From the NCBI RefSeq assembly GCF_000255115.2, contig NC_018068.1, positions 3,443,977 to 3,507,976 of the forward strand: a stretch of DNA of 64,000 bases, given 5' to 3'. This DNA is from Desulfosporosinus acidiphilus SJ4. Lineage in GTDB: Bacteria; Bacillota; Desulfitobacteriia; Desulfitobacteriales; Desulfitobacteriaceae. The notes under the pieces are model-generated. The model was not told the DNA's origin. It saw only the letters and a list, made by a program, of their open reading frames with translations, and searched no databases. Both the position numbers and the translations under genes were made by a program. Below are positions 39,127 through 42,431 of this stretch, piece by piece (positions within the stretch are counted from its first letter, which is position 1; each line of letters opens with the position of its first letter).

Positions 39127-40473
39127 CTACTCTCCGAGAATCCGCCGTTGAATAAAATTCGTATAGACTTCCCCTCGGCGGTAGAAAGCATTTTCTAAAA
39201 CTTTCAAATGAAACGGAATTGTCGTGTGAATTCCTTCAATCACGAATTCCTCCAGGGCACGTTTCATTCTTTGTATAGCTTCTTCCCGAGTAGCACCCCA
39301 AACAATCAGTTTTCCGACCATGGAATCGTAGTAAGGAGAAACTGTATAGCCCTGATAGGCAGCACTGTCAACCCGTACTCCCGGGCCACCCGGTGCATGA
39401 TATATTTTTAGAGTACCCGGTGAGGGCATGAAGTTCTTATCCGGATTTTCAGCATTAATTCTGCATTCTATAGCCCAGCCGCGAATTTCAATGTCCTCCT
39501 GGGTATATCCTAACGGCTCACCGGCTGCTAAACGAATTTGTTCTTTAACCAGATCAAGTCCCGTTACAAGTTCTGTTACCGGGTGCTCTACTTGGATTCT
39601 TGTATTCATTTCAATGAAATAAAAGTTTCCGTGCCGGTCTAACAGAAATTCAATGGTCCCAGCATTGGAATAGTTTGCTGATTTAGCAGCTTTTACTGCT
39701 ACTGAGCCCATTTTAGCTCTTAACTCAGGCGTTAGGGCGCTAGACGGTGCTTCTTCCAAAAGTTTCTGGTGACGGCGCTGTAAAGAACAATCCCTTTCAC
39801 CGAGATGTACAACCTCACCGTATTTGTCAGCTAATATTTGAATTTCAATATGCCTGGGTTCTTCAACGTATTTTTCCAGGTAGACATCGGAATTGCCAAA
39901 AGCGGCCTGAGCCTCTGTTTGAGCCGCCTGAATTGCTTTACTCAGTTCCTTAGCATTCTGAGCAACCCGCATTCCCTTACCACCGCCTCCAGCTGAGGCT
40001 TTAATCAAAACGGGATAACCTATACTATCAGCAACAGTTTCCGCCATCTGATCATCTTTAATGATGTCTTTAGATCCGGGAACCACCGGCACTCCGGCAT
40101 CAATCATAGTTTTTCTGGCGATGGCTTTATCTCCCATCGTCTCAATGGCATGGGAAGACGGTCCAATAAACGTTATCCCACAAGACTCACAAATCTCGGC
40201 AAACCGAGCATTTTCTGATAAAAACCCATATCCGGGGTGAATAGCGTCAACACCCGTCAATTCAGCAGCACTAATGATGTTAGGAATATTCAAATAGCTT
40301 TTGACGCTTGCCGCTGGGCCTACGCAAACTGCCTCATCGGCGGCCTTTACGTGTAAAGATTCTCGATCTCCTTCGGAAAATACAGCAACCGTCTCAATAT
40401 CTAGTTCATGACACGCACGAATGACACGAAGGGCAATTTCTCCGCGGTTTGCAACCAGGATTTTTTTAAACAT
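39127..40473 (-). CDS. accC: Biotin carboxylase
   Basis: A 448-residue ATP-grasp enzyme. [20 protein letters not shown] begins the biotin carboxylase N-domain, [13 protein letters not shown] follows, then the glycine-rich loop [34 protein letters not shown], and [16 protein letters not shown] with the catalytic residues. It carboxylates biotin on the carrier domain encoded just upstream. It lies 11 bp after the carboxyltransferase/AccB fusion, so the two could form either acetyl-CoA carboxylase parts or a two-subunit pyruvate carboxylase. Confidence 0.96.
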
Positions 40474-40484
40474 GCCTTTTCTCC

Positions 40485-40964
40485 TTATTTTTCAATGATG
40501 AACAGCGGCTGACCATACTCAACGGGTTGCCCATTCTCTACTAAGATTTTAATTAACTTTCCTTCAACATCGGACTCAATTTCGTTCATTAACTTCATAG
40601 CTTCTATAATGCAAACAGGCTGTCCGATACTAATTTGCTGCCCCACTTCCACATACGGTGCTGCATCCGGCGAGGAAGCATGATAAAATGTTCCGACCAT
40701 CGGAGCAGTTATAGTTTCCGTATTTTGCTGGCCGACAGGATCTGAAGATGCAACGGGAGCTTCCGCAATTAGTTCAGCCTGAACATTTGAGGCTGCGGCA
40801 ATAGTCTTAGATTCCTGACGGACAGGAGCCGCTGCCGGAACGCTTGGAGGAAAATTCATCCCCTTGCGGATGGCAATTTTTACACCATCACTTTCCAGGT
40901 TTAACTCACTTATTTCTGTTTCATCAATTATTTTAATTAATTCTTTGATTTCCTTTAAATTCAT
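40485..40964 (-). CDS. accB: Internal start producing free AccB biotin carrier (nested in the fusion)
   Basis: Inside the fusion, TAAGGAGGAT (40980-40971) precedes an in-frame ATG at 40964 by 8 nt, an ideal ribosome binding site. The resulting 159-residue product [17 protein letters not shown]... is a full-length AccB with a biotinyl domain ([10 protein letters not shown]). This fits the conserved accB-accC order in spore formers. Translation from this site is inferred from sequence alone. Confidence 0.65.
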
Positions 40965-42431
40965 TTTTGAATCCTCCTTAGCTAATCCCGTGGTCCAGAT
41001 TTCCTTCGCTGCTTTCGTTTCCTTTACTGCGCTAGCTGCGGTTTTAATTTCGCTGTTGGGTATGATTCCATTTTTCCTCTCTTCAAAAAACTTCTTAGCG
41101 ATTTGAGGAAAAATAGCAAAACTCATAATATCTTCCGGAGAACGGGCTAATCCTAAGCTATCACGTTTGGCCTTCTCCATCCCCGGTTCTAAATTGTCAG
41201 CCGGACGCTCGAATAATGGCTTCTCATTGCCAATAATCTTTTTCTGAATATCATGATTGATGGAAGCCGGCGGACGTCCATAGAGACCACGCACATAAGC
41301 CTTTACTTCGCCAGGCACTAATTTATATCTTGCCCCGCTCAAAACATTTAATACAGCTTGGGTCCCAACAATTTGACTTGTCGGTGTAACTAAAGGCGGA
41401 TAGCCTAACTCTGCCCGAACCTTGGGAATTTCATTTAAAACATCATGAATGCGGTCAAGGGCCCTTTGTTCCTCCAATTGAGACACCAAATTCGAGATCA
41501 TTCCGCCAGGAACTTGATGTTCAAAAACTCTCATATCGGATATCCGGGTAATCCCACGCTCAAAGCCACGGCTTTTGCGCAAGGCTTCAAAGTAATTGGC
41601 TATGTGGAATAGATTTCTAAGATTTAGACCACTGTCATAGTCCGAATCTTGAAAAGCCCTGACCACTGTTTCAACAGGAGGTTGACTTGCTCCAAAAGCT
41701 AAAGGAACACTGGCCGTATCGATGACATCAACTCCCGCTTCCGCCGCCTTCAGATAAGCTCCTACTGCCATTCCTCCAATGTAGTGACTGTGCAAATGAA
41801 TCATAATCCCCAATTTCTTTTTTAAGAGGGAAACTAACTCATAGGCTCTAAACGGCGTAAGCAGTCCAGCCATATCTTTTATACAAATGGAATCCGCTCC
41901 CAGTTCAGCAAGAGCCGTCGCTGTTTCCAGATAATGATCTATCGTGTGAACCGGACTCATGGTATAAACGACGGATGCTTGAACATGAGCTCCGGCCTTT
42001 TTGGCAGCTTCCATGGGAACAACCATATTTCTCACATCATTAAGAGCATCAAAAATCCGGATAATATCAATTCCATTCTTCACACTGAGGGAAACAAACT
42101 CTCGTACCACATCATCCGGGTAATGCTGATAGCCTACTAACGACTGGGCCCTAAGAAGCATTTGCAAGGGAGTTTTATGCACACGACGTTTAATCTCACG
42201 CAAACGTTCCCAGGGATCTTCGCCTAAAAAACGCAAACAGACATCAAAGGTTGCTCCTCCCCATACTTCGAGAGAAAAATACCCTGCCTCGTCGATCTCT
42301 TCTAAAATCGGCAGCATATCCTCTGTACGCATACGAGTAGCCCAAAGGCTTTGATGAGCATCCCTAAGTGTCGTATCAGTAATCTTAATCGGTTTCACTG
42401 CCGTTACCCCTCTCTCTTTACCCATTAACAT
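40485..42431 (-). CDS. OadA/PycB-type carboxyltransferase fused to an AccB biotin carrier
   Basis: A 648-residue protein. Residues 1-470 are a PYC/OadA carboxyltransferase: [20 protein letters not shown], the metal/biotin region [20 protein letters not shown], and [16 protein letters not shown]. Residues 490-648 match AccB from its own start: [19 protein letters not shown], a Pro/Ala linker, and the biotin site [24 protein letters not shown] is the AccB form rather than the usual OadA form. With AccC it could act as pyruvate carboxylase (or an oxaloacetate decarboxylase alpha chain, though no beta/gamma subunits are here). An internal ribosome site can also yield free AccB. Confidence 0.9.

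Follow-up and report, generated by a model that had tools for sequence, protein, structure and literature searches.

A carboxyltransferase–AccB fusion gene with a conserved internal start, predicted to supply both a fused and a free biotin carrier

Organization of the fusion locus

The window analysed here, a 64,000-nucleotide stretch of the Desulfosporosinus acidiphilus SJ4 genome (NC_018068.1, positions 3,443,977 to 3,507,976), carries on its minus strand a single uninterrupted reading frame in which a PycB/OadA-type carboxyltransferase (CT) continues in frame into a complete AccB; the biotin carboxylase gene accC lies directly downstream (Table 1). The CT part takes up about the N-terminal 470 residues, and the HMGL-like, PYC_OADA and biotinyl domains follow one another in the order expected of a PycB protein, and an adjacent biotin carboxylase is expected of PycB as well. 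Residues Q27, R94, K185, H214 and H216 of the CT are invariant in 44 aligned fusions, and D19 and the T349-P-T-S stretch are kept in at least 90% of them; these residues presumably have the catalytic roles of their counterparts in PYC and 5S structures. Translation of the fused protein probably begins at GTG 42398 and not at ATG 42431, because a start codon (GTG, ATG or TTG) recurs at that position, taken as six codons before a T-x-x-x-LRD-like motif, in 45 of the 86 fusions with enough 5′ sequence, the host fusion included. Counted from this GTG, the fused protein would have 637 amino acids and a mass of 70.4 kDa.

Table 1. Features of the fusion locus, in window coordinates.
Feature	Position	Strand	Basis
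CT–AccB fusion ORF	40485..42431	-	648 aa from first ATG; frame reading and domain matches
Likely translation start (GTG) of the fused protein	42396..42398	-	Start codon at the equivalent position in 45/86 fusions
PycB/OadA-type carboxyltransferase	41028..42389	-	Profile search of the fusion: HMGL-like match, residues 15-279; PYC_OADA match, residues 302-468
Interdomain linker, residues 474-489	40965..41012	-	Low confidence in structure model
Internal Shine–Dalgarno (SD) sequence AAGGAGGAT	40971..40979	-	GGAGG 8 nt from inner start
Internal start ATG, AccB Met1 (fusion residue 490)	40962..40964	-	Conserved codon and SD
Complete AccB, 159 aa, 17.1 kDa, predicted free as well as fused	40485..40964	-	TIGR00531; 4hr7_B alignment
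Predicted biotin attachment, Lys613 in EAMKLM	40593..40595	-	Invariant in 44/44 aligned fusions
accC, biotin carboxylase, directly downstream	39127..40473	-	TIGR00514, 763.9 bits (cut-off 626.5)

An earlier note on this DNA had described a CT joined in frame to a complete AccB, and profile searches bear this out: residues 490–648 span the entire AccB model TIGR00531 (positions 1–156) and score 172.5 bits against a cut-off of 115.2, and 44 of 44 aligned fusions match the same model at E ≤ 1e-20. Residues 1–158 of the AccB part align with residues 21–176 of the AccB chain 4hr7_B, without gaps through the SSPDAAPYV stretch, which we take to be the AccB 'thumb'. The lysine of the EAMKLM motif is the predicted biotin site, and its combination with the thumb points to a carrier of the AccB type. 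A profile search of the host genome (4.99 Mb, 99.99% complete) gave five TIGR00531 matches, of which the fusion alone lies above the cut-off; a separate accB elsewhere, named in the earlier note as counter-evidence, did not appear at that threshold.

AAGGAGGAT and an ATG sit exactly at the AccB junction. The DNA ahead of AccB Met1 reads TAAGGAGGAT TCAAAA ATG, with TAAGGAGGAT at 40980–40971 and the ATG at 40964–40962. The sequence that had been read earlier as a strong internal ribosome site is present, and its spacing of 8 nt holds for GGAGG, whereas the ten-base motif as then quoted lies 6 nt from the ATG. In a structure model, residues 474–491 have pLDDT values below 50, the CT and the biotinyl domain are mostly confident and the AccB N-terminal helix reaches only about 55–58; the model places the inner start at a domain boundary and otherwise adds little.

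The fusion is flanked upstream by spoIIIAH, and accC is followed by an Asp23-family gene, flanks that we take to be the Bacillota accB–accC neighbourhood as known from B. subtilis; the locus therefore looks like this usual setting with a CT added before accB. The product of accC is the predicted partner of both the fused and the free carrier. A plasmid search with the fusion returned 14 records, all below 60% identity, one of them spanning 80% of the query.

Distribution of the fusion and conservation of its internal start

The fusion is widespread and not local. A fusion ORF of at least 517 amino acids occurs in 38 of the 45 genomes of the host's family (f1), in 3/3 genomes of a second family of the same order (f2) and in 8/9 genomes of family f4. 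The f1 genomes that lack it have either partial AccB matches only (G022 and G028) or no AccB at E ≤ 1e-20 (G024, G033, G063, G067 and G068). A third family of the order (f3) has no fusion: 20 of its 25 genomes match at E ≤ 1e-20, all with short frames. In the eight f3 genomes for which coordinates were compared (G037, G039, G041, G042, G044, G054, G055 and G056), about 2.8 kb separate the stand-alone accB from accA, and accC follows accB at the loci that were read; this arrangement differs from the spoIIIAH–asp23 setting. A sample of 398 genomes from the phylum gave an AccB match at E ≤ 1e-25 in 228; among the 150 of these that were listed, 90 are fused and 60 stand-alone. Many other families have the fusion too, and named relatives that carry it include Desulfosporosinus, Thermincola, Syntrophomonas, Coriobacteriia and Candidatus Aquicultor.

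The earlier note suggested that a stop codon was lost between two once-separate genes. That the fusion in this genome is a recent accident, or two genes joined by an assembly error, has almost no chance of being the explanation: the distribution just described rules it out, and a CT gene upstream was found at 0 of 32 stand-alone accB loci (20 searched over up to 4 kb and 12 over 1.5 kb, out of the 60 stand-alone rows listed, with two fusion loci as positive controls). The unfused neighbour state is therefore not seen in these loci, and a lost-stop origin of the fusion is unsupported.

Conservation of the internal start was assessed on 142 extracted fusion ORFs, from which removal of 11 near-duplicates left 131 non-redundant sequences. 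The main set of 128 omits three distant sequences (L089, L090 and L100) that have neither SD nor start codon at this position; L167, with a broken model alignment, and L019, a contig-edge fragment too short to count in which SD and ATG are present, were dropped before counting. AccB codon 1 is a start codon in 125 of the 128 fusions (125/131 with the three distant ones), as ATG in 77, TTG in 24 and GTG in 24, although the sequences are related and the gene counts are hence not independent. A FastTree phylogeny built from the CT domains of all 131 requires at least 23 changes of the codon label, of which 5 switch between start and non-start.

Where AccB codon 1 encodes leucine it is TTG in 24 of 26 genes, against 21.5% of leucine codons elsewhere in the same genes; where it encodes valine it is GTG in 24/24, against 31.6% elsewhere; isoleucine is found there in 0/128. 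An SD of at least 5 nt precedes the codon in 119/128 genes and one of at least 6 nt in 104/128, compared with means of 58 (maximum 75) and 27 (maximum 41) when the same peptides were recoded synonymously with each gene's own codon usage in 500 draws. Start codon and SD occur jointly in 117 genes against 41 by recoding (maximum 58). Compared with the best SD of the gene's own start, the internal SD is longer in 67 of 84 cases, equal in 7 and shorter in 10. A conserved SD and start codon at the domain boundary are what internal initiation would be expected to leave.

The six residues before the inner start form 83 different hexapeptides in 117 genes, the SD–start spacing is 8 nt in 92 of them, and in 12 the SD falls in a different reading frame, so it is the nucleotides more than the peptide that are conserved. 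Some peptide constraint is possible, since residues −5 and −4 are partly conserved, most often as K and E (82 and 99 of 128). This pair by itself favours AAGGAG, which gives some footing to an account in which translation yields the fused protein alone, with an AccB domain that works for its own CT as well as for AccA/AccD; the SD-like stretch would then be a side effect of a charged linker of the KED type or of ribosomes pausing between the domains. In principle, a complete AccB tail might still have access to AccA/AccD. We judge this account quite improbable. The same peptides, recoded, yield the longer SD in far fewer genes than observed, the use of start codons for leucine or valine in 48 of 50 genes is explained neither by a pause nor by the peptide, and the spacing is typical of an initiation site. 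Linkers of CT–BCCP fusions with another carrier type also argue against it: an SD of at least 7 nt with a start codon was found in 1/14 of these against 94/128 here, and one of at least 6 nt in 4/14 against 108/128, with a shorter linker searched in the controls (64 versus 108 codons). The 14 controls include L100, and 51 further CT ORFs without a biotin site were left out. Comparative evidence for internal initiation that would make free AccB besides CT–AccB is, on these counts, strong.

The mRNA is less strongly folded around the inner start than on average over the gene (mean z +1.15, positive in 123/128), also when matched for GC content (mean z +0.62, positive in 86/118). The effect extends across the first 20 codons of AccB instead of centring on the inner start, so RNA accessibility gives the internal start weak support.

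Three genes in the set of 128 lack a start codon at AccB codon 1. In L059 (CTG) an ATG stands one codon earlier and in L192 (AGT) a GTG three codons earlier, each after GGAGG, and in both the start with its SD is merely shifted. The third, L235 (CTA), is a second fusion copy in genome G002; its inner start is lost, and the 600 bases downstream of it contain no accC.

Several other sequences are worth recording in their own right. G002 (7% contamination) has three AccB copies among L235, L014 and L254: a normal fusion with accC, the fusion L235 without inner SD and start, and a stand-alone accB. This last copy keeps GGAGG and an ATG, is preceded by a short in-frame stretch similar to the fusion linker, and adjoins genes that by eye resemble a ketosynthase and a reductase. 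The distant L089, L090 and L100 are CT–AccB-like fusions of Actinomycetota/Thermoleophilia and Kiritimatiellae with CAG or CGC at codon 1 and no SD, apparently a non-dual version of the fusion. Among the controls, L131 (Chloroflexi), L124 and L152 (methanogens) and L112 (Planctomycetales) have a linker start codon with an SD of 6–8 nt, either by chance or as additional dual cases.

Carboxylase partners and the reaction of the fused form

Among the NCBIfam models that the fusion matches over its full length, the domain-type PycB model PRK09282 scores best (871 bits, cut-off 402). It stays below the cut-offs of the PycB equivalogs PRK14041 (626 of 734 bits) and PRK14042 (538 of 1182), of the oadA equivalog (712 of 756.5) and of the transcarboxylase 5S equivalog PRK12330 (515.5 of 827). 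The best PDB match of the CT is 5ks8_C, a pyruvate carboxylase subunit beta, at 508.5 bits, with OadA (2nx9) at 485 and transcarboxylase 5S (1rqb) at 430 bits. The closeness of these scores and the position below both the oadA and the PycB equivalog cut-offs, along with a separate full-length PYC in the host genome, would suit a fused form that is an oxaloacetate decarboxylase or an enzyme akin to transcarboxylase 5S, with the inner start used all the same. We consider this unlikely. The best full-length match is PycB, the partner accC lies directly downstream as a carboxylase would have it, and OadB (PF03977) gave 0 matches in the host genome, with the same model matching in 2/14 control genomes. 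A sodium-pumping decarboxylase of the OadA type was accordingly rejected for the host, because OadB is absent.

The scarcity of full-length PYC points the same way. In a PF02436 search of the 150 AccB genomes listed, out of 228 that match, full-length PYC was found in 2 of 90 fusion genomes, leaving 88 without, and in 12 of 60 stand-alone-AccB genomes (Fisher p = 0.0003, without correction for kinship); this difference agrees with a fused form acting as pyruvate carboxylase. Within the host's genus, fusion genomes such as G001, G004, G006 and G027 are without full-length PYC and others, including the host genome (G000), have it.

To see how far one biotin carboxylase might serve two carboxylases, 28 fusion genomes picked for completeness, and not as a random draw, were compared. 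Exactly one biotin-carboxylase domain (E ≤ 1e-10) is present in 18 of them, in all 18 cases within about 1.5 kb of the fusion, and each of these 18 genomes has one AccB match at the search thresholds. AccA (E ≤ 1e-50) is found in 25/28, including 15 of the 18. In these 15 genomes the fusion gene and its AccC must supply acetyl-CoA carboxylase, because they hold the sole AccB match and the sole biotin carboxylase and AccA is present; in the single-AccC genomes, the same gene and AccC probably also supply a two-subunit pyruvate carboxylase. Three genomes of genus g39 (G093, G310 and G438) show no AccA at E ≤ 1e-50 and keep the fusion, the inner SD and ATG and the single AccC; a free AccB there would need another partner, as AccA is missing at that threshold.

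The host genome encodes accD and accA (C3:1830787–1832347), a separate 1155-amino-acid pyruvate carboxylase and five biotin-carboxylase domains, so that anaplerosis has another candidate beside this locus and neither role of AccC needs the fusion locus exclusively in this organism. At C3:437761–439980 the same genome also has a 1115-amino-acid frame with biotin-carboxylase, biotinyl and acyl-CoA carboxyltransferase domains, an unusual single-chain carboxylase.

The proposed two-product gene and related systems

We propose, as the likely reading of the comparative sequence data, that the locus is a conserved two-product gene that makes CT–AccB and free AccB, both served by AccC. Ribosomes that start at the gene's own start, probably GTG 42398, would produce CT–AccB, and those that start at 40964 would produce free AccB. 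The neighbouring AccC would carboxylate biotin on the two carriers alike. CT–AccB with AccC would then act as a two-subunit pyruvate carboxylase that converts pyruvate to oxaloacetate, and free AccB with AccC and the unlinked AccA/AccD as an acetyl-CoA carboxylase that provides malonyl-CoA for fatty acids. The earlier note had already suggested that one locus yields a fused and a free carrier and lets accC serve two enzymes. The conserved inner start and SD, the lack of a second host AccB over the cut-off and the single biotin carboxylase in 18/28 genomes give that part of it strong comparative support; its anaplerotic role has to be qualified, as anaplerosis is not exclusive to the locus in this host.

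Since the AccB N-terminal part is present in both products, free AccB and CT–AccB might further share one AccC in a mixed assembly. Carboxybiotin would be passed there between the pyruvate and acetyl-CoA sites, and oxaloacetate made or consumed at the CT would tune malonyl-CoA synthesis directly. We offer this as a doubtful extension of the two-product proposal; if true, it would be a living counterpart of the ancestral carboxylase that has been proposed, with a single promiscuous biotin carboxylase and run by one two-product gene.

Bacterial acetyl-CoA carboxylase has an accB–accC operon, for example in Bacillus subtilis. The present locus resembles that operon in having accC after accB between spoIIIAH and an Asp23-family gene and in an AccB that aligns with 4hr7_B, and differs in that a CT is attached to the AccB N terminus and no separate gene encodes AccB. 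With the two-subunit pyruvate carboxylase PycA + PycB (5ks8) it shares a separate biotin carboxylase beside a CT–BCCP subunit; however, its carrier part is a full AccB (TIGR00531) in place of the short one of PycB, its biotin carboxylase belongs to the AccC type (TIGR00514) and the inner start is conserved.

Internal in-frame starts are known from other genes, CcmM among them. In SctQ/YscQ/HrcQ of type III secretion, an in-frame inner start yields the C-terminal domain SctQ-C as a separate functional subunit (PMC4295842, PMC8553256). There, one gene gives a full-length protein and a C-terminal subunit, as is predicted for our case; the SctQ products share one complex, whereas two enzymes would each take one product of the gene described here. 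In the sections available to us, Lombard and Moreira (2011) discuss two-subunit pyruvate carboxylases and propose an early cell in which one BC subunit served both a CT–BCCP protein (PYC) and an independent BCCP with a CoA carboxyltransferase (PMC3199775). That ancestor has in common with the present proposal one biotin carboxylase for two carboxylases; it is a reconstruction, however, and those sections contain no mention of an AccB-type fusion or of an inner start. Inner in-frame starts that give a C-terminal subunit are therefore known, and the portion of the open-access PMC literature covered here contained no description of an AccB-type fusion, of its inner start or of this gene design.

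If the two-product reading is right, a large group of anaerobes would obtain its fatty-acid biotin carrier from a start hidden within what the best curated model labels as a gene for pyruvate carboxylase subunit B. Entry into the TCA cycle and entry into lipid synthesis would be linked both physically and translationally. These bacteria would also provide a present-day case of a single biotin carboxylase for two carboxylases, as proposed for early cells (PMC3199775).
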